In this document: piece by piece, positions 18,087-49,251 of the stretch
How positions within the stretch are numbered: the first letter of the stretch is position 1
Layout of the letters: every line of letters starts with the position of its first letter
NCBI GenBank assembly: GCA_949152475.1
Contig: OX424569.1
Coordinates: 32,533,950 to 32,597,949, forward strand
Direction of reading: 5' to 3'
Source: Terebella lapidaria
Lineage: Eukaryota > Annelida > Polychaeta > Terebellida > Terebellidae
DNA length: 64,000 nucleotides
Notes under the pieces: model-generated
The model's database searches: none
What the model saw: the letters and a program-made list of their open reading frames with translations, nothing else
Told to the model about the DNA's origin: nothing
Program-made: the position numbers and the translations under genes

Positions 18087-18087
18087 A

Positions 18088-18930: not shown

Positions 18931-18934
18931 ATAA

Positions 18935-22496: not shown

Positions 22497-23348
22497 ATGA
22501 TGGATTCTATCATAGGAATGGGAGCAATGAATTGCATACTTTCCTCTTTAGTGGTGATAACCAATGCGTCGGCGATAGCGGGTTTTTGCCTAACGAAGAA
22601 TAGGAAAAAATCGACTTACTATATCCTGATCCAGAACTGTACTGCAGGATGTCTCACTGGTCTGGCTACTTTAATAACTGGCTCTTACAGGGTATTTTTG
22701 ATGCAAAACTGGACGCTCTGTATGATAAGGTCATGGATGATCCGATCATCCACGGGAATATATGCTTATCACTTAGCGATGCTAAACTTGGATCTCTACC
22801 TATCACTGAAGCAGATGACGGTCGGACCCACTTTGTCAACGAGGACAGTTGTGATTGCTTCCGTTGCTGGTAACCTGTTCTGGACGTTGCTGGGTGTAGT
22901 AGTACTCGGTGTGTCGGAACTGAACACTTTGTGGAACTCTGTGGATCCCTGTCCTCCGCCCACATGGATCAGTGCAGGTTTTCTTGGGCTCTATCTCGTG
23001 ACGTTGATTGTCACATTGACCGCCCATGCATTGTCCATCAAGCTTGCCGAAACACGCACCAGTCCAATTGATCTTGTCCAGAGTACATCACTGAGGAAGC
23101 TAAAGAAGATGAAGATTGTTCTCTCAGTGTACAGTGTTTCTTGGTTCATGGCACTGGGGTTCCAAACTCTGTTTGCATTCTGTGGACCCTGCAAGCGAGA
23201 ACACGTGGAGGTAGGCCTGCGTTCGGCATTCACGATTGTGTTGCATGCACCACAGCTCTTCATACCTATTGTTCTCATCACTGCAAACGATGGACTTCCA
23301 AGATGTTTACAAGAAAATATGTCCCTGGAAATGTTGTTTGCGTCCTGA
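22497..23348 (+). CDS. GPCR-like seven-transmembrane protein, copy B
   Basis: 283 residues in one exon. Seven hydrophobic segments lie at about 7-31, 41-66, 75-102, 117-138, 156-180, 203-229 and 239-263. The pattern fits a short rhodopsin-class receptor: Asn in helix 1 (TNAS), a Cys75/Cys152 pair for the extracellular disulfide, LDLY where DRY normally sits, Trp in helix 4, a basic LKKMKIV start of helix 6 with SWF, and a Pro in helix 7. N48 and N71 are in glycosylation sequons. The N-terminus is very short. Classical DRY and NPxxY are not kept, so this is a divergent receptor, and a pseudogene is possible. Relative to copies A and C, one extra C near 23291 shifts the frame after ITANDGL. The cysteine-rich tail is replaced by an unrelated 16 residues. 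Ligand unknown. Confidence 0.6.
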   Translation: MMDSIIGMGAMNCILSSLVVITNASAIAGFCLTKNRKKSTYYILIQNCTAGCLTGLATLITGSYRVFLMQNWTLCMIRSWMIRSSTGIYAYHLAMLNLDLYLSLKQMTVGPTLSTRTVVIASVAGNLFWTLLGVVVLGVSELNTLWNSVDPCPPPTWISAGFLGLYLVTLIVTLTAHALSIKLAETRTSPIDLVQSTSLRKLKKMKIVLSVYSVSWFMALGFQTLFAFCGPCKREHVEVGLRSAFTIVLHAPQLFIPIVLITANDGLPRCLQENMSLEMLFAS

Positions 23349-24376
23349 GAATAGAGTGATCCCCTCCGACACTGGACAGCGGGTCATCAGCGTTGATATT
23401 TAGATTCAGTTAGTTCTTATAAAGTTGAGCAAACGATGGACCCCGAGAGGAGAAAATGTTTTCTCTCTAGAAATGTTATTTGCGTCGCGAGAACCAAGTG
23501 GTTCCCACCGACATTTACTGGATTGGATTGGGGTCCCCAGGACCAACATTTAGTTAGCTCTTATAGAATTGTGCACAATACTACACGAATGGCTACACAA
23601 GAGGCCACAAATGACAATATAACAGCACGTATGTACAATTAGTTTGTCAAGAAAATAAAGAAGCCAAGTACAATGAGATGTCAACCACACATCCTGAACA
23701 TTTCAAACTACCCGACTGTTTCCTGCGCGTATGCTGCTGTGAATAGAAGTATCTGTAAGACCAGCGTCGTTTTTGTAGTAAGAAAATTTTCGACCTAATT
23801 AGATCCAAGAAAATACAAAATTACCAGTCTCAAATCCCCTACTGCGGAGCCTTTGGATCATCAATTATTATCGTTTTCTTTGTTAAAATTGGGCAGTTTA
23901 ATGGCTCCTTCGTAAACAAAAACAATACAGTGTGAACCATTTGTACTGATTATATCAGATTGCCTTAATCAGCGATTCGTGAAGGCTATACCGGACTGCC
24001 ATAGTCTATTAAACGAAAGACACTTGGCCTTATTGGACTTAACAGAAATCGATGACAGCTGAAAGTCACTACATGTTCTCTAAATCTATACTGTTCACCA
24101 GTATACGATATGAGTTGTAGCAAAAGGCAGAACTCAGTTTGAAAGATGATTGCAAGCTCAATATCGTGTTTTGTTGCAGTGACTGTCAAAACATGTACAC
24201 ACATAAATGTCAGATATTTACAAGGATATCTGATAATTGAACGGTACAAGATCCTATCTGTAATAGAAAGTTCTATTTAACATAGTTGAATTTCATTTTA
24301 TTTTGTTGTGATAAATACTGTTGTTGGGATAAATACTTGTAAAGATCGTTATAGTGCACCCCGACTCGTTATAGTG

Positions 24377-24834
24377 TAAGCGGTGCAGCGGTGAAGTGGT
24401 TTTGTCCGGGCATGAGGTGGGCTTTGCTCGGGCAACACTGCTGATGCTGGGTGAAGATCAATTACTCTTTCTGTTGCAGCATCATATTTTGGTTGTCAGC
24501 GGATATAATAAAACAAGGTATGTGTCTCAAAATTTTGGTGACGAGAAGGATGTTTTGAAAGCAAATCTACCATGAAATGGACAAAGTATGTATTCCCTCA
24601 TAAAATAACCGATATGAATTGTGTAGTCACTTAGAACAGTTCGCAGGTTCTTGACTATCAAAGCTTATGATATTCCGGATTATTTGGAGGCGATAGCTGA
24701 ACTTGTGAATGAGTAGTATGTGCCCCAAAACAAAGCGAGTTGTACATACCATCCGTATGACCGAGCAAAACCCAGCATCAGCAATGTTGCCCGAGCAAAA
24801 CCCATGACCTGCCCAAGCAAAACCCACCGCTTAC
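24377..24834. mobile_element. 458-bp inverted-repeat element, unit B copy
   Basis: The left end TAAGCGGTGCAGCGGTG, GGGCTTTGCTCGGGCAACA and GCTGATGCTGGGT reappear inverted at the right (ACCCAGCATCAGCAATGTTG ... ACCCACCGCTTA). Arms are about 80-90 bp and imperfect. The second copy, at the same place in unit C (51518-51975), shows that it predates the duplication. No ORF. Confidence 0.7.
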
Positions 24835-27163
24835 AGGAATATGGAATATTTATTCAAAATGGTGTTTGTTTGTGAATCACAGAAATTAAGGATAAACCAC
24901 ATTCAATTATCTGGATGGAACTCTGTTTAGCTTGAATGATCGTTGTGCTTGCTTCACTCACTTGTTGTTTTTCTTGTGTGGATGTTAAATAAGTGGTAGT
25001 GTTTTACCGTATTTCCTCGCGTGATCAATGGTGACTGATTAATTCATGAAGGCTGAATACATCATTGGAAATGTGTTTGATGAAGTATCTTTCATGTTGT
25101 GGGGTATATGTGCTCGGGAGAAAAAAAACAAATAAACACGATTATATGTTGTGTGATTATCTCTGTTGAAAAGATGTACTCTTGGGTTCGAAATTGGAAT
25201 CGTGAGATCACGATGAATTCTTGGTCTCAACCTTGCTCAAAACCCAACAAAATGTTGATACCCGAGGTGTTTACCATACCATTTCCTTTATTGTATTAGT
25301 ATACTACCAAGTAGGCATTCCTGTTATGCATATCATTATTATCATATAACTAGTGTGTCCGAAAGAAACATTGAAATACAAACTGTTGCTGTAACATAGA
25401 CATTTCCAAAGTCAAATTTTGCCATATGTTGCATTTGGAAAAATCATGTCATTCTTTTAAATTTTATATATCAAGCAGCATAAAGACTACAGTGTATGTG
25501 TGTAACCGTACTGTTCATGGTTGATTTACAGAGTTAAATCAGTTGAGCACTCCATATAGAACCCGAAATTTTTCACGAATCTCAATATTCTACTTTACAT
25601 GTCTGAAGAAATATCCAGCAAACTGGAGAGTTGGTTACCACTATGGAGAACATTTATCCAAGTCGTGTTATCACATGTGGATGTTATAGGCATCTAAGAG
25701 GCATATATCCAAAAGATTCGTCTTGTTGTGCCTAGGTCCTTTCAGCCATTGGCAAGTTTAGTCTCACCAGATGGTAAGCATTCGTGTTCATTTAAATGCA
25801 AACCAGCAACCTATCTTTTGCACACTATATCCATCAATGCAGAAAACATAAGTTCCATTTATGGCGTTATGATGGTTCTCTTTTACACTAGATGGAATTA
25901 GTAAGCAATTGCATAGCAACGTATTAGAACAATTAAATAAACGGGGGGAGAAACGAACTCATACAAAAAGTATCCAATCAGAAGCCAGAAGGCTAGTTGA
26001 GTCTACGGTATCCTAGTGGCAGATTCAACGTCCGACACGGCTTCGAGGTATAAAATGTAAAAATCAACCAATTACCACCGACCCAACCAGATATTGACGA
26101 TGACATCACAAAGGACAACATTTTGTATTAAAACAAAACGTATTGCTTCAAGATTCACGTTATATGTTGAAATATACTACTAAGCAAAACATAATGATTT
26201 TCAAGCAAACTCGCGAATATTTCAGCTCCATCATGACTAAATCCGAACTCGAAGACAGATGAGCTATTGAAATAAGACTGAATAAATCAAACGGTAAAAA
26301 AAAAACACTGCTCCACTCGTCACCATTTTGATCTTTAATTGCATGGTTTTATATATTTAAAATGTATTGTACCATGTCTTCTCGTTTAATTATTAGCGAC
26401 GAATTACTCCATTAAGGTCGAATAAATCATCAGAAATTAATTATCTTGTATGTACTGATGTATTTTGGCCAGTAATATACACAAATAAACATGATTCAAA
26501 AACAGTCATGCTGCGCTCAATTTCTGTGTTTCTGGTAAATAACCTCTCTCAAAACTTATCCACCCTACTCTCCACATAAAATTATCTAAACAGCCTTCCA
26601 TCAGTTGTGGAGATATTTTCACTGGTGTGATCTCTTGACATCATGCGAATAATGGATCTTTCCACGGAGGCCTCTCTGAGACTATGAATATTCGGCAATT
26701 GTCGGGTTATTCCGTCAATTCAAACTAACCACTGAAGACTGCCCGCTCGCTAGTGCGTGTCCTGGCAACCTGAAACCATGTTTGTATTGTAACGGTTTTG
26801 GGGCGTACCCAAAGGTTTCCCCTAGGTATTTATGTTAGTGTTTTGTGATATTATGGTTAAATAACCGTTTATTAGGGTGTATATGTGTTTAAAGGTTCAT
26901 ACGGTTCCGTATTGTTAATGTTTTAAAGGTTTTCCGTCTCGGAACTTAGTAATTTATGATGTTGGTAAAGCCGGAGACGGATCCGGAGACGGAGACGGAA
27001 CCGGACACGGAGCCGGAACAATGGAGTACAAAAACGTAATGACGTTATTTCCGGAAGGTCATGTGATCAGCCTCGTTTTCGGTTTAAAAGGTGACGTGTC
27101 AGCCACTGATTGGTTCTAGAGTGTTTTTAGAAATCCGGAAAATATCAGTGTTTTGGCGGACTA

Positions 27164-27212
27164 TGACGTCACAATAGGTTGGTCACGTGACGTGGGTCTC
27201 AGGTCTATAAAA
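27164..27212 (+). promoter_or_regulatory. Element 2 LTR promoter
   Basis: TGACGTCA (27164-27171, CRE-type), TCACGTGA (27183-27190, palindromic E-box) and TATAAAA (27206-27212) follow in order, with an inverted CCAAT (ATTGG, 27109-27113) upstream. The same core recurs at 38243-38291 in the 3' LTR and, in closely similar form, before both zinc-finger ORFs. Confidence 0.75.
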
Positions 27213-27354
27213 GCCCCCGCTTCACAGCGGACGGCGGAGTTGGTGTCCTGACGTCGACCTGTGCAGACCCCTTCTCCCATAGCAGAGTACTCCCTTGTTC
27301 CGGATAGAGTCATCCAGATGATAGCAGTTAAGTCTTCCGACTGTGAACTTGGAA

Positions 27355-27360
27355 AATAAA
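27355..27360 (+). terminator. Polyadenylation signal in the LTR
   Basis: AATAAA lies about 150 bp after the TATA box, with a second AATAAA at 27416. In the 3' LTR the equivalents (38434, 38495) would end transcripts. This places a short R region in the middle of the LTR. Confidence 0.5.
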
Positions 27361-28181
27361 CATGAAAACTTCAACCGAGTTGTTTTTCCGTGTTCGTTAG
27401 GGAACTGGAAGTTATAATAAAGTTAGTTTCCCGGAAAAGACAGTTATACGGAGTAAAGGGAGATAAGACTACAGTCGGTTAAGACCAAGTTGTAACGACG
27501 TCTTAGGGTGATCTAAGAACCCAGATCACCGAGGAAGGAGTCGGAGACGGAGACGGAGGTGGAAATCAACGGAGCAACTACGGAGGCGGTATCGGACGGA
27601 GCAGTTGCAGAGACGGGAACGACGAAGCAGTTGCAGAGGCGGTACCGGACGACGGAGTTGCAGAGGCAGTACCTGACGGAGCGGTTGCGGTAACCGGAAG
27701 TGGGAACACTTCCGAGATACTCCATTTCAGGTGCAGTCGCAGGTTGCGGTGAGGCGGAGCCAACCGGAGCAGATTGCAGTGCGGCGGAACCTGGCAGAGC
27801 GGTTGCAGTATTCGGAAACGGCAACGTTCCCGGATTCTTTATTCCAGGCGCAGTCGCAGTTTGCAGTAAGACGGAAAACGACGGAGCTGTTGTAGTAAAG
27901 CGGTTTCCCGACGGAGCAGTTGCAGTACCCGGAGACGGAAACGCCTCCGGATCCTTACTTTACAGGTGCAGTTGCAGATTAGCAGTCGGGCAACGGTTAA
28001 GAGGTCCATTCCAGACCACGCTACCAACCTTAGAGACTTCTAGCCGGAGTTCAACCGTACAACAGTAGCAGTTTCCCGGAGTTTTACCGTTTCAGCTCCG
28101 GTTAAACAACAACTCACCCACCTCCCTAGAAAATCGGTTCATCAAGACGTCACAGAAGGGTTCAAACCCGTTACAACTTTT

Positions 28182-28199
28182 TGGTGGCAGCGGTGGGAT
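28182..28199 (+). other. Element 2 primer-binding site (tRNA-Leu type)
   Basis: TGGTGGCAGCGGTGGGAT starts 6 nt after the LTR. Its complement, ATCCCACCGCTGCCACCA, matches the 3' end of a metazoan tRNA-Leu as I recall it. Confidence 0.8.
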
Positions 28200-28209
28200 C
28201 ATCTGCAGT

Positions 28210-29502
28210 ATGACTACTAGACGGGGCAAATTGGCGGAACAGCAGCTGAAGGCAGCCGTGTCGGACACGGAGCAGCCTGTAGGAGCAGTAGGAGCTGAGC
28301 CGTTGCAGATGCCGGTTGCGGAAAAGGAAGCGGTTCGTCCTGCCGAGCGGAAGCTGTTGCAGCCGGAAATGCAGAAAGCAGTTGCAGACGAGCCCCTCCG
28401 GGTTCCTCAAGGAGAACAGCCTGCAGAGCAGTTAGCAGAGGCGGAAGTTAACTTTCCGGACCAGGCTGGCGATCGGGAACCGGATGCGGACCCGGAAGGC
28501 GGAGAGAACTTAGTCGACAACCTGACCAGATTATTGGCGACCCAAATGGAGGTGTTTCAGCAGCACCTGGCAGTAACCGGAAAGCAGCAGCAGGCAGAAG
28601 CAGTACAACAGCCAGCACCAAGGGCAGGAGTAGCCAGATTAATGACATACGACGGAACTGATCCGTGGCCGGAATATGAGGCTCACCTCCTTGAATACGC
28701 TCGGTACTACCGTTGGACAGCAGAGGAAAAGGCGCTGAACTTATGTGTCAGTTTGAGGGGTAACGCCCGCAGCATACTACTGGATCTGTCCGCGGAGCAG
28801 AGACGCAGCTTTGATACGGTTGTGGCGGCATTAAAACAGCAGTTTTGTCCGGGGGAGAAAACATTTGTTTTCCAGGCAGAATTGCAGACACGGAAATTGC
28901 AGCCGGAGGAGGAGCTGTCCGAGCTGGCCAGAGACATACGGAGCAAGACGCGGCTAGCTTACCCAAAAGCAGATCCGGCAACAACAGAAGTGCTCATGAA
29001 GATGCATTTCTGCAACAGCCTGACTAACCGAGATATGCGGTTGTCGGTATTGAAAAGCCACCCGGAAACGCTGTCGCAGGCCCTGGCTTTCGCTACCGAG
29101 TATGAGAGTATCATGAAAACGGACAACAGCAGACCAGCGGAGCGACACCGGACGAGGCAGCTGAACACGGAGCCGGAGTGGAGCCAGCAGGTGAACGAAT
29201 TGCGGAAGCAAGCCGAGCAGACTCAGCAGCAGATGGCGGATCTGATGACTCAGGTCAAGGAAGCGGTTAGCCGGCAGCAGCAGCAGCGCAGTTCCCGAGC
29301 GGATTTAGAATGTTTCAACTGTGGCCGGAAAGGGCATTTTGCCCGAGACTGTAGGCAGCCGAAGCAGCAGCAGCAGCGGCGTCAACCACAACAGCAGCAG
29401 TCGCCGCGACAACAGCAGCAGCAGCAGCAGCCGCAGCCGCAGCAGCAGCAGCAGCAACAATTGCAGCAGCCACGACAGCAGCAGCAGCAGCCGGAAAACT
29501 AG
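28210..29502 (+). CDS. Element 2 Gag polyprotein
   Basis: 430 residues from the first ATG after the primer site. The N-terminus is acidic and Ala/Glu-rich. A Gag core lies at about 143-300 (TYDGTDPWPEYEAHLLEYAR, LRGNARSILLDLSAE), then a CCHC zinc knuckle CFNCGRKGHFARDC at 368-381, then a long Gln-rich tail encoded by CAG/CAA runs. It forms the particle and binds RNA. The ORF ends GAA AAC TAG; the preceding G makes the heptamer GGAAAAC. In the -1 frame translation would run on into pol. Confidence 0.9.
   Translation: MTTRRGKLAEQQLKAAVSDTEQPVGAVGAEPLQMPVAEKEAVRPAERKLLQPEMQKAVADEPLRVPQGEQPAEQLAEAEVNFPDQAGDREPDADPEGGENLVDNLTRLLATQMEVFQQHLAVTGKQQQAEAVQQPAPRAGVARLMTYDGTDPWPEYEAHLLEYARYYRWTAEEKALNLCVSLRGNARSILLDLSAEQRRSFDTVVAALKQQFCPGEKTFVFQAELQTRKLQPEEELSELARDIRSKTRLAYPKADPATTEVLMKMHFCNSLTNRDMRLSVLKSHPETLSQALAFATEYESIMKTDNSRPAERHRTRQLNTEPEWSQQVNELRKQAEQTQQQMADLMTQVKEAVSRQQQQRSSRADLECFNCGRKGHFARDCRQPKQQQQRRQPQQQQSPRQQQQQQQPQPQQQQQQQLQQPRQQQQQPEN
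29493..29499 (+). promoter_or_regulatory. -1 frameshift heptamer GGAAAAC before the gag stop
   Basis: G GAA AAC directly precedes TAG (29500-29502). Pol is in the -1 frame, is open through this point and has no ATG near its start. The A-site shift AAC to AAA is the strong type, the P-site is non-canonical. Element 1 has GGGAAAC at the same place. Confidence 0.65.
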
Positions 29503-32500
29503 AGCGGGTCGCGGAAAAGGGGAAATCCGGGACCCGGAAGAGAGGACACCCCCATAACCGGCAGGTGGTTCACGGACCCGGTCCCAGGGGCGAGGTGGGC
29601 ATGTGTGTGACAGCCAGAGTATGCGGAGAGCCAGTAACGCTGATAATCGACACCGGCAGCACTGTCACAATGCTCAACCTACAAACCTGGGAACGGATCC
29701 GGAAACCCGGAATGAAGCTGAAGCGGTCGCCGATTCGTCTTTCAATGGTTGACGGAAGTAACATACGGACACATGGCCGGAAAGAACTCCCACTCAACAT
29801 CGCAGGAGTAGCTGAGACCGTGACGTTCGAGATTGCAGACTGTGAAGACGAAGGAATACTGGGGATGGATTTCATCCGTTCCCGAGTATCCGGCATAAAC
29901 TTCGACCGGATGACCATGCAGATGGGCAGCCAGGAGGTGTTCCTCACCATGTTCGAGCAGACCAGGGAGCCGTTTCCGATCAACGCTGTAGCAGATTACC
30001 AAATTCCGCCGGAAACGGAACAGCTGATTATAGGACAAGCAGAGAGTGTCCGTGAAGCAGAAGGAGTACTAGAAATGCCGCAGGAGCCTACGGAGAAAAG
30101 ACCTTGGCTGATCGGGAGAACTTTATCCCGGATAAAGCAAGGAACAGTCCCGGTTCGAGTGATCAACGTGATGGCAGAGCCGGTAATCATCAAGAAAGGA
30201 GCGCAGTTGGCGACGATGACCACCTTAGCAGCCGGTTGCAGTGTTGTGCCGTTGGCGGAGCGGAGCCGGAAGGTGCAGATTTCCACGGAGTCGGAGGCCG
30301 GGCGGAATTGGAGCGGGTACGAGAAGCTGCGGCAGTTAGCAGAGCAGACCCAGGATGCAGTGCCGAGTCATTTCCGCGAGAGAGTAACCGACCTCCTATT
30401 TCGGAATAAGCCGACCTTCAGTAATGATGCCGGAGAACTGGGGCAGACCAACGAGGTACAACATCAGATAAACACGGGCAGTCACCGGCCGATTAAGCAG
30501 CCAACCAGACGAATTCCGCCAGACAGGAGGGAGCTGGTGAGCAGTCTGATTCAGGAGATGAAAGACAAGAACGTCATTGAAGAAAGTAGCAGTCCGTGGG
30601 CTTCACCGATTGTCCTCGTGAAGAAAAAGGATGGAACCACCCGGTTCTGCGTCGATTACCGGCGGTTAAATGCAGTCACGGAGAAAGATGCTTATCCGTT
30701 GCCGAGAATAGACGACACCATAGCAGCCTGTGCAGACGCTAAATGGTTCTCCACTCTCGACCTGACCAGTGGCTACTGGCAGGTCGGGATGGATGAAGAC
30801 GCCCGGAAAAAGTCGGCCTTCTGTGTTCCTGGCGGCCTTTACCAGTTCAAAGTGATGAGTTTCGGCTTGTGCAATGCTCCGGGTACGTTCGAGCGGTTGA
30901 TGGAGAAGGTGCTAGGCGGTTTGTCCTGGAAGACCTGCCTCATATATCTGGACGACATCATAGTCTACAGCAAGACCCTGGAGGATCACATCCGTGATCT
31001 TCAGGAGGTGTTCAGCAAGCTGAGAGAGGCAGACCTAAAAGTCAAACCGTCAAAATGCAAGTTCTTCCAGCCGGAGGTGTCTTTCCTAGGTCACATAGTC
31101 GGCAGAGACGGTATCCGCACCGACCCGGCAAAAACGGAGGCAGTACGGAAGTGGCGGACACCCACCAACCTGACGGAGCTGCGCAGTTTTCTGGGTCTTT
31201 GCTCCTATTACCGGAAGTTCGTGCCGAAGTTCTCCGAGATTGCAGCGCCGCTGAATCACTTGACGGAAAAAGGGGTGCCGTTCCGGTGGCAGACGGAGCA
31301 AGAACAGGCATTTGCAGAGCTGAAGAACCGCCTAGTATCGGCACCGATACTCGGGTACCCAAGGGAGCAAGGCCGATATATCCTGGACACGGACGCCAGT
31401 GACACCGGGCTGGGAGCAGTACTGTCACAGAAGCAGGGCAACCAGGAGCGGGTGATAACCTACTTGAGCCGCAGCCTAACCAAAGAAGAACGGAGATACT
31501 GTGTCACCCGGAAGGAGCTCCTGGCGGTTGTGTTTGCGGTACAGAAGAATAAGCAGTACTTGCTGGGACGACACTTCCTTCTTCGCACGGATCATGGCAG
31601 TCTGACCTGGCTTATGAATTTCAAGGAGCCCCAGGGGCAGGTAGCCCGGTGGATTGAGCTCCTGAGTGAGTTTCATTTCGACATCGAACATCGTCCGGGG
31701 CGAATCCATAATAATGCGGACGCCTTGTCCAGATCCCCATGCAGCCAATGCGGAAAAATCGACTGGAAACAAGCCAAGATAGATGCCTGGAACTACGGAG
31801 AAAGAATCCGGCAGACACGAAGTGAAGAAACTCCTCAGCCCAAGCCAAAGAAGGGGGGACGCCGGAAGCGGTCAAGGAGATCGGGCGGAGAAGCGGAACT
31901 GACGGAGGAAGCAGTCCCAAGGAAGGCGGTTGCAGTAGCGGAGAAAGCAGCGTCCCGGAAGCCGGTTGCGGTTGCGGTGACGGAGAAAGCAGCGTCCCGG
32001 AAGCCGGTTGCGGTTGCGGTGACGGAGAAAGCAGTGTCCCGGAAGCCGGTTGCGGTTGCGGTGACGGAGAAGGCAGTTCCAGGAAAAGCGGATGCGGTTG
32101 CAGAGCAGATTAGGCTGGCGGAAAATGCGGACCAGGATACTGTGCTGGGGCAGAAATATCGACCAGATGATTTGCGGAGAATGCAGCAAGCAGAACCTTG
32201 GTACTCACTGGTGACGTCGCTGATCGACGGGAGCGGTACGGCTGGCAGTGCAGACTTTTCCAGCATGAGCAGCGAGGAGAAAGTGCTGTACGGGATGCGG
32301 AAGACCTTGCTGAAAGTCGACGGAGTAGTCTACCGGAAATGGAGAACGGCAGAAGGAACCAGCCGAATGCAGTTAATAACCCCGAAGGAGCTGAGACAGG
32401 AGATTTTCCGTCTGGCCCACCAGAGCCGGACGGGAGGACACCTCGGAAGCAGAAGGATGGCGGCTAGCATTCGGAGGCGGTATTTCTGGCCGGCTATGAT

Positions 32501-33566
32501 GCGGGACATAAAGCAGTGGGTGCTGAGCTGTGACGAATGTGCGTCAAGAAGTATGCAGAACTTGAAACGATCTCCGATGCAGAAATACCGGGTTGGAGCG
32601 CCCATGGAGAGGGTGGCAATGGACGTGATGGGTCCGTTACCTAAATCCACCCGGGGGAACCGGTACATCTTAGTAATCGGCGATTACTTCACCAAGTGGG
32701 TAGAGGCTTACCCGATGCCGAATCAGGAAGCGGTGACGGTTGCGGACATATTCGTCAACCAGTTTGCAGCGCGGTACGGTATCCCGATGGAGATACACAC
32801 CGACCAAGGCAGAAATTTCGAGTCCGACTTGCTGAGAAATGTTTGCAGAATCCTGGGGATTCACAAGACACGGACGACCGCTTTCCGACCTCAGTCGGAC
32901 GGTTTCATCGAGCGATTCAACCGGACGCTGCAGCAGATCTTGAGCCTGTACGTAAGCGAGCGGCAGACCAACTGGGATCAGCTAGTTCCGTTGGCGATGG
33001 CAGCTTACCGGAGTACCCCGCAGGAGACAACCGGGCAGAGTCCCAACTTGCTGATGCTGGGCAGAGAAGTCAACACTCCGGTAGAGTTACTGATTGGCAG
33101 ACCGCCGGGAGAATCAACGGCAGAAGTAACAGAGTATGGCAGTCAGCTCCGGGAGCGACTAGAGGCGGTATACAAGGCGGTTCGAGCGAAATCTGGCAGA
33201 GAAATGGAACGGCAGAAGAAGCTGTACGACCGGAGGAAGGTCAACAATCAGTTCCAGCCAGGAGACCGAGTGTGGATGGCGGTCAAAACACGGAAGAAGG
33301 GCAAAGCTCCCAAGTTGCAGAGGAAGTGGAGCGGTCCAAAGCTAGTGCTGAGCAGATTTACCGACGTGACCTACGAGATTGCAGAGAGTGAAACTCGACA
33401 GAAGGTGGTTCACTTCGATTTGCTGAAACCGTATAATGGCGTCAAGCATCCGAGATGGATGAAGCGGAGAATGGCGGATTCCTGGAGGCAGACGGAGCCG
33501 CCGAAGCAGAGTAGTGTTCCGGAGACGGAACCGACGGTCTCTGAGTCGGATACGGACTCGGAGTAA
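29496..33566 (+). CDS. Element 2 Pol (protease-RT-RNase H-integrase)
   Basis: Read by -1 frameshift from gag. Residue numbers here count from the GTG codon at 29565, which gives 1333 residues. The protease has DTGS at about 29-32. RT has FCVDYRRLN at about 357 and YLDD at 461-464. RNase H has LDTDAS at about 607-612. A linker with three 14-residue repeats follows. Integrase has an HHCC zinc domain (second Cys pair C989/C992), then D1020, D1080 and E1116, giving DD35E spacing. A GPF-like module and an acidic tail close it. All catalytic residues are present with no stop or frameshift, so Pol looks functional. It performs reverse transcription and integration. Confidence 0.92.
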   Translation, partial: KLERVAEKGKSGTRKRGHPHNRQVVHGPGPRGEVGMCVTARVCGEPVTLIIDTGSTVTMLNLQTWERIRKPGMKLKRSPIRLSMVDGSNIRTHGRKELPLNIAGVAETVTFEIADCEDEGILGMDFIRSRVSGINFDRMTMQMGSQEVFLTMFEQTREPFPINAVADYQIPPETEQLIIGQAESVREAEGVLEMPQEPTEKRPWLIGRTLSRIKQGTVPVRVINVMAEPVIIKKGAQLATMTTLAAGCSVVPLAERSRKVQISTESEAGRNWSGYEKLRQLAEQTQDAVPSHFRERVTDLLFRNKPTFSNDAGELGQTNEVQHQINTGSHRPIKQPTRRIPPDRRELVSSLIQEMKDKNVIEESSSPWASPIVLVKKKDGTTRFCVDYRRLNAVTEKDAYPLPRIDDTIAACADAKWFSTLDLTSGYWQVGMDEDARKKSAFCVPGGLYQFKVMSFGLCNAPGTFERLMEKVLGGLSWKTCLIYLDDIIVYSKTLEDHIRDLQEVFSKLREADLKVKPSKCKFFQPEVSFLGHIVGRDGIRTDPAKTEAVRKWRTPTNLTELRSFLGLCSYYRKFVPKFSEIAAPLNHLTEKGVPFRWQTEQEQAFAELKNRLVSAPILGYPREQGRYILDTDASDTGLGAVLSQKQGNQERVITYLSRSLTKEERRYCVTRKELLAVVFAVQKNKQYLLGRHFLLRTDHGSLTWLMNFKEPQGQVARWIELLSEFHFDIEHRPGRIHNNADALSRSPCSQCGKIDWKQAKIDAWNYGERIRQTRSEETPQPKPKKGGRRKRSRRSGGEAELTEEAVPRKAVAVAEKAASRKPVAVAVTEKAASRKPVAVAVTEKAVSRKPVAVAVTEKAVPGKADAVAEQIRLAENADQDTVLGQKYRPDDLRRMQQAEPWYSLVTSLIDGSGTAGSADFSSMSSEEKVLYGMRKTLLKVDGVVYRKWRTAEGTSRMQLITPKELRQEIFRLAHQSRTGGHLGSRRMAASIRRRYFWPAMMRDIKQWVLSCDECASRSMQNLKRSPMQKYRVGAPMERVAMDVMGPLPKSTRGNRYILVIGDYFTKWVEAYPMPNQEAVTVADIFVNQFAARYGIPMEIHTDQGRNFESDLLRNVCRILGIHKTRTTAFRPQSDGFIERFNRTLQQILSLYVSERQTNWDQLVPLAMAAYRSTPQETTGQSPNLLMLGREVNTPVELLIGRPPGESTAEVTEYGSQLRERLEAVYKAVRAKSGREMERQKKLYDRRKVNNQFQPGDRVWMAVKTRKKGKAPKLQRKWSGPKLVLSRFTDVTYEIAESETRQKVVHFDLLKPYNGVKHPRWMKRRMADSWRQTEPPKQSSVPETEPTVSESDTDSE
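31915..32110 (+). repeat. 42-bp (14-residue) tandem repeat in the pol linker
   Basis: VAVAVTEKAASRKP is repeated three times with partial copies at each side, between RNase H and the integrase zinc domain. The repeat is in frame and reads as an Ala/Val/Lys-rich flexible spacer. Confidence 0.8.
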
Positions 33567-34315
33567 AGCCGCAGAGGACGCAGAAATATTAGAAGACGGA
33601 GTGAGCTGTAGAGCAGGAGAAGGAGATAGCTGAGACCCTGGTAAAACGTTGAGTTCCGGCAGAGAGCGACCGCAAGAAGTCGGAGCAGTGAGCAAGTGCT
33701 GGTTCCGGAAACAGGGCGGAGAAAGGAAGCAGAGCGGAAAGCGGTGCAGGGACCGGATAGAGACATCCTAGAGGTTCTGACTGGGTTGAGCACATAGTCA
33801 ACCAGTCCGGGGTAGCGGCCAGGGGTCCAGAAGAACCTGGGTTAGCGGTCTAGTATCTCCAGAGAAGCAGCTACACGTCTTCCGTATTCAGAGAATTAAG
33901 ACGGAAAAGTTTTCCGGCTGTAGACATCCAACCGGAGTTTCCACTTAGCAGAGACAGCAAACCGGCTGCAGATCGACAGAAGCGGTGAAACATCATTCCA
34001 GATAGGAAGGGCCCTCCTTCTGGACAAGAATGTATGCAGTTTCCAGTGTCGACAAGCAGTAATACCAGTGAGCAGATATGCAGTTGACGAAGCAGTACAG
34101 ATGGCGGAAACGCCCAACTTGCAGTCTAGATGTTCGTCTGAGAGGCAGATTCAACTGGCTGAGACTCTATTCAACCCTCCTGATGGCAGAGATACTTCAA
34201 AATTGCAGATACTTCGCTCGGAGAAGCAGTTGAAAGGGAGCCGGAAAAACCCGGAGAAGCCGGTTGAGCCGGAGACGGACACCTCTCGGTTAACGGTTGA
34301 GTTTTTGCATAATTG
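33567..34315 (+). other. Non-coding stretch after pol of element 2
   Basis: About 750 bp rich in CGGAG and GCAG words, like the coding parts, but with no ORF of note. It leads into the first internal promoter. Confidence 0.5.
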
Positions 34316-34385
34316 TGACGTCACTCCTGAGGCAGCCAATCAGCATGGAGCTTTTCAAATCACGTGAGCAGAAAGGGTATATAAG
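34316..34385 (+). promoter_or_regulatory. Internal promoter 1 of element 2
   Basis: TGACGTCA (34316-34323), CCAAT (34336-34340), TCACGTGA (34360-34367) and TATATAAG (34378-34385). The 19-nt gap from CCAAT to TCACGTGA is exactly as in internal promoter 2. It lies about 245 bp upstream of the first zinc-finger ORF. Confidence 0.7.
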
Positions 34386-34629
34386 GGCCTTGAAATCGGG
34401 CTCTGACAGCAGTTGGAGAGCAGACCTCGAGCTGTGCACATCGCAGACAAAGTTTGGCGGAATCGAATCAAGTCCAGCATTTTCCGGTAGCAACAGATTT
34501 TGCAGTGAAAAACGACTAAGTGTTTCCCGGAAGACCACCAGTCCGGAGAAGCGGTGCAGAGGCGGCGCAGAAGCGGTGCAGTAAAAGCGGTGCAGTAGAT
34601 CGACAATTTCAGTTTCCCGGCCTTCCGGA

Positions 34630-35406
34630 ATGGCCTACTCGGCGTTCCTTGATAGACAAGATCGCGGCCGGAGCAGAGATTGGGCAACCCCGCAGCCACC
34701 GGATTATAGCCGGCTGCCACTGGATTATAGCCGGCTGTGTAAGCGGTGTGACCGGATGTTTGAGAGTGAGAGGGACCGGAGACGGCATGTGTGCCCAGCC
34801 CAGAGATTTCATTGCTGTTTGTGTGCCTTCTATGCCAACCGGGCGAACGACCTTAGGAGGCATCTCCGGGAGATGCACGGGTGGAAGTACCCTTCCGGGA
34901 ACCGTCCTCCTCAGGACGAGGCCACCCTCAACCATGTGGGAACCTTTGATTCGGCCTGGCGGGGAACAGCAACGCAGTCCCGGCATAAGCATTTCCGGCG
35001 ATACTGCACCCGGTCACCAAGGGAGAATACAGTTCCGGGAACTTATGCGGACCAGCTTCCGTTTGGCCCTGACTGGGATGCCGGAGCAGCCGCCCCCATC
35101 GGACAACCGGAGCAGTTAGATCTCCCGGAATGGGTTCCGGATCCACAAGGCTGTCTCCGGGCCGCCGACGACGCTCCTCCGGAAAGCTGGGATCAGGAGA
35201 TGGAGCTGATTGCAGAGGCGGTCAGAGCAGTTATGCCGGATCAAGCAGAGAAACCCGAAGAAGAAGATCAGCCGGTGGAAGACTGGGAGGCAGAGATCCG
35301 GGTGTGGGAATATCGACCACCTTCTCCCACTTCGGAGCCGGAGACGGATGAGTCGGAGTATGAGACGGCAGAGGAGGACTCCTGGACGGAAGCGAAGGCA
35401 GTGTGA
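34630..35406 (+). CDS. Accessory ORF 1: two-finger C2H2 zinc-finger protein
   Basis: 258 residues; ATG in good context (purine at -3, G at +4). First finger C37, C40, H53 with C55 in place of the last His, so degenerate. Second finger C62, C65, H78, H83 (CX2CX12HX4H). The last 90 residues are strongly acidic (EEEDQPVEDWEAE, SEPETDESEYETAEED), like an activation domain. The ORF sits between pol and the 3' LTR, on the same strand, behind its own CCAAT/E-box/TATA promoter. The combination of nucleic-acid-binding fingers and acidic tail suggests a transcription regulator of the element, but that is inference. I do not recognise the protein as a known retrotransposon product. Confidence 0.75.
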   Translation: MAYSAFLDRQDRGRSRDWATPQPPDYSRLPLDYSRLCKRCDRMFESERDRRRHVCPAQRFHCCLCAFYANRANDLRRHLREMHGWKYPSGNRPPQDEATLNHVGTFDSAWRGTATQSRHKHFRRYCTRSPRENTVPGTYADQLPFGPDWDAGAAAPIGQPEQLDLPEWVPDPQGCLRAADDAPPESWDQEMELIAEAVRAVMPDQAEKPEEEDQPVEDWEAEIRVWEYRPPSPTSEPETDESEYETAEEDSWTEAKAV

Positions 35407-35505
35407 AAAGTAGACGGAGGCGGTTGGCAGTATAGCGGTTGACGGAGGCGGTTGGCAGTTTGGCGGAGACGGAAGAAGCGGTGGCAGTTAGCAGCAACAA
35501 CACGG

Positions 35506-35555
<50 letters not shown>
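35506..35555 (+). repeat. 50-nt uninterrupted A tract
   Basis: Fifty A residues lie 100 bp after accessory ORF 1 and 49 bp before the CCAAT box of internal promoter 2. It may be the poly(A) tail of a captured transcript or simple slippage. No AATAAA precedes it closely. Confidence 0.9.
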
Positions 35556-35557
<2 letters not shown>

Positions 35558-35603
35558 ATTTATCCAAGAAGACCACCAGGAGGAGTTGCAGTTTGCTGAG
35601 CAG

Positions 35604-35653
35604 CCAATCATCAAGCAGATAAGCCGGTCACGTGACTTCCAGAGACTATAAAA
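35604..35653 (+). promoter_or_regulatory. Internal promoter 2 of element 2
   Basis: CCAAT (35604-35608), TCACGTGA (35628-35635) and TATAAAA (35647-35653). Spacing is 19 nt and 11 nt, against 19 and 10 in internal promoter 1. ATG of accessory ORF 2 is 79 nt beyond the TATA box. Confidence 0.75.
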
Positions 35654-35731
35654 GGGGCAGTTAGCTGTTACCGGATGCAGAAGGCAGTTTGCTGTAGCTG
35701 AGTCAACATCGACACAAAGCAGAGAATCAGA

Positions 35732-37087
35732 ATGCCGAAAGTAAAGACAACACCCCGCAAGCCCCGCCCTCACCGGTGTGGAGACTGCAACCTAGAGTTC
35801 AAGAGCGAGCACACGTTGCTCCGGCATGTCACGGAGCAGCACACAAGTGAAGTCACCGTCTTCGCCTGTCCGCAGTGTGACCATTGGAGCAGGCGGAAAG
35901 AAGGAACACAGAAGCATCTGCAGTCCCGGCACGCAATGGACGCAAACCCGATTCGACTGAGGGTGGGCAGAGAGCAGTTTGAGGAGAAAAGCCTCCGGTC
36001 CAAGATGACCCCACGGAAAAGCAAGAAGCCGGTAACACGGCATGACCAGTTGTCGGATACGGAGTCGGAGTCGGGAGGTTCGGTTTCGTCCCGGACCCGG
36101 TACCGTTCCGGTACCCAGTCGGTGGCCGCACTAGCAGCCGACGTTTCGTCCACGGAGGCGGAGAGCAGTTCGGAAGAGGAAGCGGAGCTGAAAATCATGG
36201 CAAGCGAAGACGAGTTGCAGGAACCAGGAGACCCGAAGCCGGTTAAGCCGCCTGTGACCCGGAGTTCTTCCCGGAACACCTCCCGGAAAAACAGCCCTGA
36301 CTCATCTCGAGGTACCGGAGCAGATCGAGACCGCGGAAAGAAGCGGAGTCGCAGCCGTTCGCCGGATAATTCCGGACGCCATCAACGCCGAGAATATAGG
36401 AAGGAGAGCCCGGAGCGAGCCAAGGACCGAGGCGGAGAACGTGGTCGAGAGGAGAAACGACACACCCCACCCAAGTCTTCCGGAGGCAGCGTCAAAGGAA
36501 AAGGCAAGGGGGTGTATGACTACAAGTTCCGGCTGTTGGAGGAAGGTTCCGGCGGAGCAACGGCAGAAGTGGGAGTGGCAGACATTGCGGAAATGCAGAG
36601 CCGAGACGATGAGGAAGACCTTTTCCGGAGTCCACCTCCGAGAACAACTAGCAGTGGCAGAGCAGTGAGCAGTGTGATTGTCCGGCCCGGAGGCGGAGCA
36701 GAAATCAGATCCAGCGGCCGAGCCGATAGCAGAGCAGATAGCCGAGTCGATAGCAGAGCAGATAGAGCAGATAGCAGAGCAGATAGCCGAGCGGACAGCA
36801 GACCCATTGGCAGATCGGGAGGCAGACCGGAGACCAAAACGGAAGGCGGAAACCGGAGCAGAGCTGGCAGTGAGACGGAGACCCGAGGATCCACGGAGCG
36901 AACTTTGCCGGCAACCATTCAAGCAGTAGCAGGAAGCAGAACCAGTTCAGCGGCTAGAGATGACGGAATGGAGTCTTCCGCGTCCGAACGAAGCCATGCG
37001 GACGTGCAGAGAGCCCGGAGGAGTATCCTGGTAGACCAAGCCAGAGCTACACCCGGAATCCTGTCTCCGGTGGAAACCCGACCTTGA
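35732..37087 (+). CDS. Accessory ORF 2: two-finger C2H2 protein with Ser/Arg-rich region
   Basis: 451 residues; ATG with A at -3. Two fingers near the N-terminus: C16, C19, H32, H37 and C46, C49, H62, H67, both CX2CX12HX4H. This is the spacing of the intact finger in accessory ORF 1, so the two ORFs are probably duplicates. Then follow an acidic/Ser stretch (STEAESSSEEEAE), an Arg/Ser-rich region (KKRSRSRSPDNSGRH), and a repeat of ADSR units (about residues 330-355). SR-like regions often bind RNA or splicing factors; here this is only a suggestion. One TGA (37085-37087) ends the ORF, yet the same frame stays open for a further 167 codons. Confidence 0.75.
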   Translation: MPKVKTTPRKPRPHRCGDCNLEFKSEHTLLRHVTEQHTSEVTVFACPQCDHWSRRKEGTQKHLQSRHAMDANPIRLRVGREQFEEKSLRSKMTPRKSKKPVTRHDQLSDTESESGGSVSSRTRYRSGTQSVAALAADVSSTEAESSSEEEAELKIMASEDELQEPGDPKPVKPPVTRSSSRNTSRKNSPDSSRGTGADRDRGKKRSRSRSPDNSGRHQRREYRKESPERAKDRGGERGREEKRHTPPKSSGGSVKGKGKGVYDYKFRLLEEGSGGATAEVGVADIAEMQSRDDEEDLFRSPPPRTTSSGRAVSSVIVRPGGGAEIRSSGRADSRADSRVDSRADRADSRADSRADSRPIGRSGGRPETKTEGGNRSRAGSETETRGSTERTLPATIQAVAGSRTSSAARDDGMESSASERSHADVQRARRSILVDQARATPGILSPVETRP

Positions 37088-37591
37088 CAGTCTTCCAGTG
37101 AGCGGTCCGGAAGGAGCCAAGTCCGAGCACCAACCCAGAGTCCACCCTACACCTTCTACCCGTTTGGCGGTCCTTCAACTCAACCGTGTCCGTCCCATTG
37201 TTTCCCGGTGAATATTGGGGGACGGAGCGCTTCCGTCTTTGCACCCGCAGTCCCGGAGCACGCCAGATACTATGCAGTACGTTGGGGACCGGAGCAGTGG
37301 GGGCCAGCCGAGATGAGAGACTCCGGCGTCTACGTGGAGATCATGGAGCAGAGAGAGTCACCGTTTGGTCTCGTCCCGACCCGTCAGATCGTCCGGATTC
37401 CAGATTGGTCCATCCGGGACGAACGCCTCAGGAATGGATTCTACGTCCCGCCCCAGTGGAGCCTCCATGATCCGGATCTTCTCCCGGTTGATGCCAGAGG
37501 GACAAGCTTCGGACGACCGTTGGTACCACAGACCTTTCCACCGCGTCCGCCGTCGGGGAGCAGTTCGCGCCGTGATACTGGTGGGCAGTAG
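37088..37591 (+). other. In-frame continuation of accessory ORF 2 after a single TGA
   Basis: The frame of accessory ORF 2 is open from directly after TGA to the TAG at 37589. It encodes a distinct Pro/Trp/Tyr-rich sequence (YYAVRWGPEQWGPAEMRDSG, DWSIRDERLRNGFYVPPQWS). There is no ATG near its start. Stop readthrough, a recent nonsense change in this copy, or splicing would all explain it. Confidence 0.55.
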
Positions 37592-37853
37592 TCGTCGCAA
37601 GTCGTCGCAAGTCGTCGCAAGTCAAGTCGGCGCAAGGAGAAGAAAGAAGAACCGTTTCCCGGATTCTAGTATAATTAAGAGTTAAAAAGTGGGAAACGGA
37701 ACAAGCAAGATATCCGGGTACAGTGACGGTAAACTAGTTAAGAGATACCAGTACCCGGATCACGGAGACAAGTTGTGTTTGATTTTACGGACAGTTTAAC
37801 GGTTGACAATTTGTATATATGTGATATTGTTCTGTTCGGGACGAACAGAGTCT

Positions 37854-37866
37854 AAGGAAGGGGGAG
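37854..37866 (+). other. Element 2 polypurine tract
   Basis: AAGGAAGGGGGAG is directly followed by the TGTAACGG of the 3' LTR, as expected for plus-strand priming. Confidence 0.9.
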
Positions 37867-39254
37867 TGTAACGGTTTTGGGGCGTACCCAAAGGTTTCCC
37901 CTAGGTATTTATGTTAGTGTTTTGTGATATTATGGTTAAATAACCGTTTATTAGGGTGTATATGTGTTTAAAGGTTCATACGGTTCCGTATTGTTAATGT
38001 TTTAAAGGTTTTCCGTCTCGGAACTTAGTAATTTATGATGTTGGTAAAGCCGGAGACGGATCCGGAGACGGAGACGGAACCGGACACGGAGCCGGAACAA
38101 TGGAGTACAAAAACGTAATGACGTTATTTCCGGAAGGTCATGTGATCAGCCTCGTTTTCGGTTTAAAAGGTGACGTGTCAGCCACTGATTGGTTCTAGAG
38201 TGTTTTTAGAAATCCGGAAAATATCAGTGTTTTGGCGGACTATGACGTCACAATAGGTTGGTCACGTGACGTGGGTCTCAGGTCTATAAAAGCCCCCGCT
38301 TCACAGCGGACGGCGGAGTTGGTGTCCTGACGTCGACCTGTGCAGACCCCTTCTCCCATAGCAGAGTACTCCCTTGTTCCGGATAGAGTCATCCAGATGA
38401 TAGCAGTTAAGTCTTCCGACTGTGAACTTGGAAAATAAACATGAAAACTTCAACCGAGTTGTTTTTCCGTGTTCGTTAGGGAACTGGAAGTTATAATAAA
38501 GTTAGTTTCCCGGAAAAGACAGTTATACGGAGTAAAGGGAGATAAGACTACAGTCGGTTAAGACCAAGTTGTAACGACGTCTTAGGGTGATCTAAGAACC
38601 CAGATCACCGAGGAAGGAGTCGGAGACGGAGACGGAGGTGGAAATCAACGGAGCAACTACGGAGGCGGTATCGGACGGAGCAGTTGCAGAGACGGGAACG
38701 ACGAAGCAGTTGCAGAGGCGGTACCGGACGACGGAGTTGCAGAGGCAGTACCTGACGGAGCGGTTGCGGTAACCGGAAGTGGGAACACTTCCGAGATACT
38801 CCATTTCAGGTGCAGTCGCAGGTTGCGGTGAGGCGGAGCCAACCGGAGCAGATTGCAGTGCGGCGGAACCTGGCAGAGCGGTTGCAGTATTCGGAAACGG
38901 CAACGTTCCCGGATTCTTTATTCCAGGCGCAGTCGCAGTTTGCAGTAAGACGGAAAACGACGGAGCTGTTGTAGTAAAGCGGTTTCCCGACGGAGCAGTT
39001 GCAGTACCCGGAGACGGAAACGCCTCCGGATCCTTACTTTACAGGTGCAGTTGCAGATTAGCAGTCGGGCAACGGTTAAGAGGTCCATTCCAGACCACGC
39101 TACCAACCTTAGAGACTTCTAGCCGGAGTTCAACCGTACAACAGTAGCAGTTTCCCGGAGTTTTACCGTTTCAGCTCCGGTTAAACAACAACTCACCCAC
39201 CTCCCTAGAAAATCGGTTCATCAAGACGTCACAGAAGGGTTCAAACCCGTTACA
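37867..39254 (+). repeat. Element 2 3' LTR (1388 bp)
   Basis: Copy of 26788-28175 with the same length, followed by the target duplication GTAT (39255-39258). Promoter and poly(A) elements recur at +11079. Confidence 0.95.
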
Positions 39255-39257
39255 GTA

Positions 39258-40331
39258 TTATATGAAATTCAGGCAACGTTTGAACAAGCCTGTGACCAAA
39301 GTTGCTGACGTGAATTCGAAGTTTGTTTTCCACACTATTTCAACAAATACGATTCTAAATGGGATTTTACCATTGTAACAACGAGCGGGAAAGCATGTGA
39401 TGGTGTTATGCTGTTACAAAAACGGATAATGGTCACAGTGTGATGTCCCAGAATGGCTGAGAGTATTATTGTATATTTGGGTGAGAAACTATATGTCACA
39501 GGCAGAAAAGGACACAAAATTATGTTTGATTGCAGTATATTGTTATCGCTTAACAAATGAACATATTCAATATTCAGCAATATTTGAATTAAGGATTTGG
39601 GGTGTCTAATTTTTGACAAACTTTGTCTCGTGCCCGGTTATGCTCGCGTTAATCTGGTGGAGTCCTCTGAGTCAAATTATATAGCTCAGCCCAGTATTGG
39701 TTAAGGGACTGTCTCAAGGATGCCAGATTTCAGAAAAATGCCAAAATTGTTGTGTTGGATTGCGCTGTTGATCAACCAAACAATATATTGATCATAATAA
39801 TTTGATCATAATATTGGTCATAGTAAATTTCAACGTACCGCACATAGGCCTATATTCCTTGGCAGATAGGCCTAGGCCAAAATACAGGTAACCTATATAC
39901 CATACATGTACATGTATACATATAATATCGACGAACGAAACATGAAGTTATCTTTCCACTTCAGTAACTGTTAGATGTATGATCAGAATCGGCCTGAATA
40001 CCTCCCGCGGATATTGTCTGATTGTGATTTTTTTACTGCAAAATATTCTCAAACACGAGCATTAAAACAAATTTTCATTTGTGACCATTGTATTGTCTTG
40101 AGATGTCCCCTATTCAGATCGGCTATTCCATTTGTTTGTCTCAATCCCATACAGCATCAAAATGGCAAGCTAGAATTCCCATGTTAAAACCACATAAGGA
40201 TATATATTTTTCTAAATATACGGACGAGAAATGCACACGACAGAAAAACAACCATTGTTTCATATTGGTCATAGTGCCGTTTTCACTTTATATAAATTTC
40301 AATTAATACAAGTCAGTAAATTCTGAGATAT
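39258..40331 (-). repeat. Interspersed repeat, inverted relative to 5820-7270
   Basis: Reverse complement of the repeat at 5820-7270, starting right after the LTR. It lacks the 6577-6834 MITE. Unit C has only a short unrelated stretch (54175-54275) here, so the repeat is specific to unit B. No gene. Confidence 0.75.
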
Positions 40332-49000: not shown

Positions 49001-49180
49001 TGGGCTCGGAACACCGATCAGGGTTCGAGTGAGCTTGTGTTCCTGACATCCAACACTAGGAAAACCCTCATTAATGATCATTTTGGCATAACAGTTCCAA
49101 CCTGATAGGTTTCCTGAGATGCTTACATCCAGCCCTATCTTGTTTTTGCCGGCACAATTCGCTTCCGTTTATACCGACAC
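46091..49180. other. Unit B end and spacer, no gene
   Basis: 46100-47700 aligns with 62870-64000; unit C lacks 46490-46915. From about 47700 to 49000 I find no partner or gene. A C/G-rich patch (48830-48970) with CCGGCTGCAGG repeats is unexplained. The upstream flank of GPCR copy C starts near 49000. Confidence 0.5.
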
Positions 49181-49184
49181 AACC

Positions 49185-49193
49185 CTATATAAG
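49185..49193 (+). promoter_or_regulatory. TATA box of GPCR copy C
   Basis: CTATATAAG followed by CAACGAGCACAG, 59 bp before the ATG at 49252. Same position and context as in copies A and B. Confidence 0.6.
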
Positions 49194-49251
49194 CAACGAG
49201 CACAGTAGTACATTGTCAGTCCTCACATGTTAATGCACACTGGCGGAGGGA

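Follow-up and report, generated by a model that had tools for sequence, protein, structure and literature searches.

Two zinc-finger genes with putative promoters of their own in a young Ty3/gypsy element of Terebella lapidaria

The stretch of DNA analysed here, referred to as the window, comprises 64,000 nucleotides of the annelid Terebella lapidaria (assembly GCA_949152475.1, contig OX424569.1, positions 32,533,950 to 32,597,949 of the forward strand). A single element with long terminal repeats (LTRs), element 2, spans window positions 26788-39254, i.e., 12,467 bp, and is of the Ty3/gypsy type. Between its pol gene and its 3' LTR lie two sense-strand genes with paired C2H2-type fingers, each downstream of a TATA box. 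These genes, the open reading frames ORF1 and ORF2, and the putative promoter regions in front of them, P1 and P2, are arranged as follows:

34316-34384, plus strand: P1 words, with TGACGTCA at 34316, CCAAT at 34336, TCACGTGA at 34360 and TATATAAG (TATA) at 34378
34630-35406, plus strand: ORF1, 258 residues, with a degenerate finger 1 (residues 37-55), finger 2 (62-83) and an acidic tail (136-258)
35506-35555, plus strand: run of 50 A between ORF1 and ORF2 (length 17-50 A in all 45 copies measured)
35604-35654, plus strand: P2 words, with CCAAT at 35604, GTCACGTGAC at 35627 and TATAAAAG (TATA) at 35647, and no TGACGTCA
35732-37087, plus strand: ORF2 in the window copy, 451 residues, with fingers 16-37 and 46-67 and an arginine/serine-rich (RS-rich), basic tract
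37088-37591, plus strand: C-terminal part of the same ORF2 frame, severed in the window copy by an in-frame stop

Around the two genes, element 2 is composed of the following parts:

26784-26787, no strand: target-site duplication GTAT, left
26788-28175, plus strand: 5' LTR, with TATA at 27206, TCACGTGA at 27183 and TGACGTCA at 27164
28182-28199, plus strand: primer-binding-site-like TGGTGGCAGCGGTGGGAT, directly after the 5' LTR
28210-29502, plus strand: gag, with one CCHC knuckle (Pfam zf-CCHC, 3.2e-07)
29601-33566, plus strand: pol, with protease, reverse transcriptase, RNase H and integrase (Pfam), open
37854-37866, plus strand: polypurine tract AAGGAAGGGGGAG, upstream of the 3' LTR
37867-39254, plus strand: 3' LTR
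39255-39258, no strand: target-site duplication GTAT, right

The two LTRs (1388 bp each) are 100% identical, as befits the LTR pair of a Ty3/gypsy element, and have the termini TGTAACGG...CCGTTACA (TG...CA). The order of the pol domains (protease, reverse transcriptase, RNase H, integrase), together with the CCHC knuckle of gag, is the Ty3/gypsy arrangement (Pfam), and TGGTGGCAGCGGTGGGAT is what we take to be the complement of the 3' end of a tRNA-Leu including its CCA. The insertion is recent and the element young, because the LTRs are identical, the flanks duplicate GTAT, and pol is complete and open. No env of the kind found in foamy viruses was matched by Pfam in the scanned frames, and, ORF1 and ORF2 aside, no sense frame downstream of pol reaches 200 residues before the 3' LTR begins (shorter frames of 147, 199 and 136 residues are present).

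The initial annotation had described two ORFs downstream of an intact pol, C2H2 fingers spaced as CX2CX12HX4H with a degenerate first finger in ORF1, an acidic tail in the first protein, an Arg/Ser-rich tract in the second, and TATA words at 34378 and 35647, all of which is borne out by the sequence, including a pol that is open with all its domains. The spacing CX2CX12HX4H is found in ORF1 at residues 62-83 and in both ORF2 fingers, while the first ORF1 finger (from residue 37) reads CX2CX12H and then has a C two residues further; by the criterion CX2CX12HX3-5H, the two proteins together hold three complete units and one degenerate unit. Since the same irregular form is kept in 7 of 7 copies compared, it looks like the working form of the finger and not like decay of the window copy. 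In one divergent copy (L061), three residues have been deleted from the beginning of ORF1 finger 2. The ORF1 tail (136-258) contains 35 D/E and 6 K/R and has an isoelectric point (pI) of 4.05; the basic RS-rich tract of ORF2 (171-260, measured on copy L010) has a pI of 11.6.

Both genes are kept open under purifying selection, which is strongest over the fingers. The genome searched for copies comprises 761.6 Mb in 438 contigs, and the ORF1 search, with scores for the best 147 of its 707 candidates, reported 161 matches, from which 147 main places with 89-100% identity were taken; 14 of these 147 places match residues 1-196 only, and two hold an internal stop. Because only the best candidates were scored, the ORF1 list leans to intact copies. 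In the 47 copies read (L009, which is the window copy, L010, and L017-L061), ORF1 is open throughout. The ratio of nonsynonymous to synonymous substitution rates (dN/dS), taken over pairs with dS > 0.05 that are not independent of each other, is 0.254 for ORF1 (197 of 1081 pairs) and 0.121 for ORF2 (159 of 946 pairs; L046, L047 and L060 dropped). By part, it is 0.055 for ORF1 residues 1-95 and 0.297 for the remainder, and 0.025 and 0.177 for ORF2 residues 1-100 and 101-451, respectively. Single comparisons agree for the more distant pairs: L018 and L059 differ in ORF2 by 34 synonymous and 12 nonsynonymous changes (p 1.4e-12) and in its C-terminal part by 8 and 2, and L009 and L058 give p 1.1e-05 for ORF1, whereas near pairs are not significant (ORF1 L009-L036 p 0.39, L009-L057 p 0.053; ORF2 L018-L009 p 0.43). 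Five more divergent ORF1 alleles have ratios of 0.19-0.50 at dS 0.15-0.28 in 15 comparisons, the highest (0.45-0.50) belonging to L064, in which the ORF1 tail is matched in a different frame; in L063 and L068, the ORF1 frame is shorter (233 residues). The proposal that many copies with both ORFs and dN/dS below 1 would mark genes maintained by the element is thus supported, and neutral decay of the ORFs, named as a finding that would speak against it, is ruled out by dN/dS and by the substitution counts.

ORF2 as a stand-alone gene ending at 37087 requires correction: the frame is there, but in the window copy it is severed at codon 452, and in 43 of the 47 copies read it runs for 604-627 residues from the first methionine, mostly 619, the exceptions being the window copy, L046, L047 and L060. 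The frame that ends at 37591 is the severed end of the window copy, and a separate third ORF at 37313 is ruled out, as it is the end of the ORF2 frame in most copies. Of the 94 rows from the ORF2 search, 92 give an open-frame figure of at least 600, a column that appears to read through stops, and 6 rows carry one stop. Chance ORFs in a T-poor region are ruled out by shuffling: in 1000 dinucleotide shuffles of 33567-37866, the longest ATG-started ORF averages 115 residues with a maximum of 279, a length of 258 is reached once and of 451 never, and no shuffle has a second ORF of at least 258 residues. Codon usage trained on gag and pol weakly prefers the ORF1 frame (0.078 vs -0.049 and -0.061) and barely distinguishes that of ORF2 (0.030 vs 0.019 and 0.002), a measure that says little, because the noncoding spacer 33567-34629 reaches 0.101 in one frame. 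A 199-residue stop-to-stop frame (34520-35119) overlaps ORF1 in the +1 frame; inside ORF1, 36 of 47 copies keep this +1 frame open as far as codon 162 and 9 as far as codon 155, and nothing indicates that it is coding.

The presence of the gene block can be followed among copies of pol, of which 35 out of 14,554 candidates were scored: 30 have ORF1 and 5 do not. In 24 copies, a listed ORF1 lies at the expected place; the other 11 include five with an ORF1 of 77-79% identity and a sixth with ORF1 further downstream (L069/L073). As for those without ORF1, ORF2 is present in L062/L074, and the remaining four (L066, L070, L071, L072) have long pol matches and lack both ORF1 and the finger half of ORF2, two of them (L071 and L072) retaining the first bases of ORF1; the C-terminal part of ORF2 is open in all four in the stretch examined. 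The matched pol contains stops in 2 of the 5 copies without ORF1 (none in the other three), and in 4 of all 35. Three of the four large deletions have one common 3' junction, which suggests that a deleted form has multiplied. Copies lacking the region, the other observation that had been named as contrary, are therefore found in part. The possibility that both genes are passengers, i.e., captured sequence that is copied along without a function for the element, would agree with these five copies; yet dN/dS well below 1 in both genes, the open ORF1 in every copy read and the retention of the promoter words oppose it, and, already contradicted by the substitution pattern, it is barely credible. 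Alternatively, help in trans would allow copies without the genes to persist, and the deleted forms could use the proteins of intact copies.

The promoter regions of both genes carry words common to the LTR promoter. In all 42 copies with 360 bp of upstream sequence, P1 holds the cAMP-response-element (CRE) word, CCAAT, CACGTGA and TATA. P2 holds CCAAT in 45 of 45 copies, CACGTGA in 43 and TATA in 44; the CRE word TGACGTCA, which within the element is confined to the LTR and P1, occurs there in none. TCACGTGA is present at three distinct sites of the element only, 23, 18 and 19 bp upstream of the TATA words of the LTR, P1 and P2, respectively. Three random placements yielded three such hits in none of 1,000,000 trials, for a word that was picked after the promoters had been inspected. 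The alignment of P1 with P2 spans 64 columns and scores 33.5, a value attained by 0 of 300 shuffles, or by 2 of 300 if the shuffled stretches are longer. The score of P2 against the LTR promoter is likewise reached by 0 of 300 shuffles, and that of P1 against the LTR promoter (30.0) by 1 of 300, a weaker similarity; the wider spacer 33567-34629 resembles the LTR no more than chance would allow (6 of 100 shuffles). The finger pairs of ORF1 and ORF2 align as well, with a score of 62 reached by 6 of 2000 shuffles in which C and H were held fixed. Hence, the suggestion that promoter and ORF form a duplicated module gains support, short of proof, from alignments of both the promoters and the finger pairs that exceed most shuffles. 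The P2 TATA sits 85 bp from the ATG in 43 of 45 copies, and the 170 bp upstream of ORF2 have 3 informative columns compared to 49 of 619 third positions of ORF2 (p 0.003), with no difference from its first and second positions (p 0.45). Such conservation would be expected of a functional promoter, which P2 putatively is.

Between the two promoters, ORF1 forms an island of divergence (34750-35499, in bins of 150 bp) among otherwise similar copies. In the most divergent copies, for which little sequence left of 34600 was compared, identity to the window amounts to 96-99% over 34600-34749, to 81-97% over 34750-35499 and to 97-100% over 35500-35799. Their ORF2 is 93-99% identical to that of the window, lowest over the finger part (93-95%), where nearly all changes are synonymous, and the pol of copies with divergent ORF1 alleles has 98-99% protein identity. 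Because the synonymous sites of ORF1 have diverged in these alleles as well, we think that the island is better explained by old ORF1 alleles being exchanged among copies, in the manner of a cassette, than by fast change of the protein. The divergent block ends at the A run, which might be a nucleosome-excluding tract for P2 or the trace of a capture from polyadenylated RNA; both are guesses.

A further peculiarity of element 2 is a strand-biased motif. The sense strand holds 210 instances of GCAG[AT], with about one per 55 bases of transcribed sequence, against 6 on the opposite strand. The motif extends through the R-U5 part of the LTR, gag, pol, both genes and the noncoding spacers, but neither U3 (449 bp) nor the 275 bp upstream of the 3' LTR contains it. 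All three codon phases are used in pol (23, 16, 23) and ORF2 (12, 15, 8), and mainly two in gag (11, 2, 9). The host flanks contain 1.4-2.7 per kb, about equally on both strands, the other gypsy-type element of the window has no strand bias (GCAGA 13, 11; CGGAG 37, 49), and divergent copies of element 2 retain the GCAG bias. The bias suggests recognition of the RNA by some protein, because it is confined to the sense strand, extends over coding and noncoding parts and is missing from U3, and it would fit an RNA-binding partner.

This motif bears on the possibility that the proteins arise from spliced RNA started in the LTR and act on RNA: ORF2, perhaps also ORF1, would export unspliced genomic RNA, and the internal TATA regions would be secondary or relics. 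For Cer1, production of CERV from a spliced mRNA and a requirement of CERV for the export of genomic RNA are described (PMC10309623). The basic RS-rich tract of ORF2 and the GCAG[AT] bias, which points to an RNA-level signal, are consistent with such a role. However, TATA, CACGTGA and CCAAT are kept in nearly all copies examined, which disfavours relics, as these should drift; the fixed distance of the P2 TATA from its ATG, and the higher conservation of P2 compared to the third positions of ORF2, argue in the same direction. An export function of this kind is conceivable, if on the whole unlikely.

Few relatives of the two proteins were found. The ORF1 search yielded one partial relative, 98% identical, from an 868-bp contig of the European Nucleotide Archive; the ORF2 search, in which the 8000 candidates sharing most words were scored, yielded no homolog, nor did that with the C-terminal part of ORF2, and scans of viral contigs with ORF1 and pol gave no confirmed relative. 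Among solved structures (PDB), ORF2 matches CTCF best (E 8.8e-17 for the whole sequence, summed over repeats; about 1e-6 for the best single stretch), and ORF1 matches CTCF at 0.002 with no significant single stretch. When human CTCF fingers 6-7 are used as query, the top match in the genome is a gene with 11 fingers, which we take for the host CTCF. Most of the 149 matches behind it look like ORF2 copies, as judged collectively by frame length (100 of 148 retyped frames have at least 600 residues); at least one of them, C5:8184945, also appears among host genes when host fingers 3-4 are the query. The ORF2 finger pair aligns best to fingers 3-4 of the host CTCF-like protein (score 108, 20 of 53 identical) and to fingers 6-7 with a score of only 67, and with host fingers 3-4 as query, ordinary host zinc-finger genes rank ahead of ORF2. 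"Host-type" is a fair label for the fingers, but no donor gene is fixed by the structure, CTCF-finger and host-gene comparisons. A dense cluster of C2H2-like matches (L083 and further places), which came up in the CTCF comparison, lies on one host chromosome, at 1.1-2.2 Mb of G000:C5.

Another possibility is that the proteins counteract silencing by binding the DNA of the element and loosening or insulating its chromatin, as VANC of the Arabidopsis VANDALs does or as CTCF-like factors would. VANC, which is encoded by the element itself, counters silencing in a sequence-specific manner, and tandem repeats are frequent among its targets (PMC5735166). In element 2, clustered ACGGA/CGGAG units in the LTR (ACGGAG 12 vs 0.6 expected) would be comparable, ORF1 varies most in its tail, and both the best structural match of the ORF2 finger pair and the matches apparently recovered with human CTCF fingers point in this direction. 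On the other hand, identity between ORF2 and CTCF is only about 34-38%, and the ranking with host fingers 3-4 and the low score of fingers 6-7 speak against a specific tie. CGGAG-type words (CGGAG 122 sense, 18 on the other strand) are spread over the whole element, so that they form no clear target array. We regard anti-silencing as rather improbable.

With regard to the surroundings of element 2, a second gypsy-type element lies at 7923-18933 of the window on the minus strand, with LTRs about 97% identical and gag and pol frames. Long direct repeats at 22421-26785 and 49165-54183, about 27 kb apart, share pieces of 82-93% identity and contain frames that are receptor-like by eye; element 2 is inserted just past the first repeat. 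No RNA family reached its gathering score in the window, and no tRNA was found there.

Taken together, both genes probably control the element's own activity. For the way in which they do so, we tentatively propose, with a confidence somewhat short of even, that a Ty3/gypsy element acquired two regulatory genes which now belong to its working components, and that these form what looks like an independently arisen counterpart of the internal-promoter circuit of foamy-virus Tas, with ORF2 as an RNA or chromatin partner. Host factors would bind the common TCACGTGA site and the CCAAT and CRE sites, so that short ORF1 and ORF2 mRNAs start from P1 and P2 simultaneously with the LTR. ORF1, a finger pair with a tail resembling an acidic activator, would enter the nucleus and raise transcription from the element's own promoters, as in the Tas/internal-promoter circuit. 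ORF2, with its finger pair, basic RS-rich middle and conserved C-terminal part, might act on the RNA or chromatin of the element, e.g., in export or packaging.

Several points weigh against this proposal. Pfam C2H2 models match both proteins only below gathering scores, and two fingers alone give little DNA specificity. The structure model of ORF2 is uninformative (mean predicted local distance difference test score, pLDDT, 33), TCACGTGA is missing upstream of another TATA-like word, at 37814, and the resemblance to foamy viruses is one of layout only. The fetched copies were drawn from a list ranked by ORF1 match, in which intact copies are over-represented, and the five pol copies without ORF1 imply that the genes may not be needed in cis. 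A more far-reaching version, which we consider doubtful, would see an independently evolved early gene block like that of complex retroviruses: two internal promoters tied to the LTR by the TCACGTGA-TATA arrangement, ORF1 as a changeable acidic zinc-finger activator with alleles apparently exchanged as a cassette, and ORF2 as a slowly changing zinc-finger/RS protein recognising a sense-only GCAG code in the element's RNA. Complex regulation by accessory genes is usually viewed as a retroviral trait; an animal Ty3/gypsy element in which two selected zinc-finger genes are driven by internal promoters would indicate that such control arose separately in retrotransposons. With its natural copies numbering well over a hundred, it would also lend itself to studies of how mobile elements regulate themselves or evade silencing.

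In the open-licence PubMed Central (PMC) literature, no Ty3/gypsy element with two C2H2 genes was found among the titles and abstract openings of the matches listed, but the arrangement has likenesses to known systems. The ORF2 pair resembles CTCF in that it aligns, at similar spacing, to fingers 6-7 of the human protein or 3-4 of the host one; the host CTCF-like gene differs in having 11 fingers, compared to two each in ORF1 and ORF2. VANDALs are Mutator-like DNA transposons of plants. By description, their VANC protein is likewise an element-encoded control protein, and it is sequence-specific (PMC5735166). Among the plant Ty3/gypsy elements, Grande and Retand resemble element 2 in that the long stretch separating pol from the 3' LTR accommodates an additional, conserved gene: gene23 of maize Grande has, by the title of the report, its own promoter and a nuclear product (Gomez-Orte 2013), and TRP28 of Retand is described as probably able to bind DNA (PMC11963269); PMC7264820 also underlies this likeness to systems already known. 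Their genes are antisense to gag-pol, in contrast to the two sense C2H2-type genes in an animal host reported here. CERV of the Caenorhabditis elegans element Cer1 is, similarly, a novel accessory protein of an animal LTR retrotransposon and acts in the nucleus; it differs in arising from spliced mRNA, and neither zinc fingers nor a promoter of its own is mentioned for it in the abstract (PMC10309623). Foamy viruses are retroviruses whose env gene lies between pol and the accessory genes; in element 2, by contrast, the stretch from pol to the 3' LTR contains no sense frame of at least 200 residues other than ORF1 and ORF2. Compared by layout, element 2 nevertheless resembles foamy-virus Tas/Bel1 in combining internal promoters, putative here, with a DNA-binding-type protein that has an acidic tail (ORF1): Tas has an internal promoter, is a nuclear protein that binds DNA and carries an acidic activation domain at its C-terminus, and recognises sites in both the internal and the 5' LTR promoter (PMC517496).

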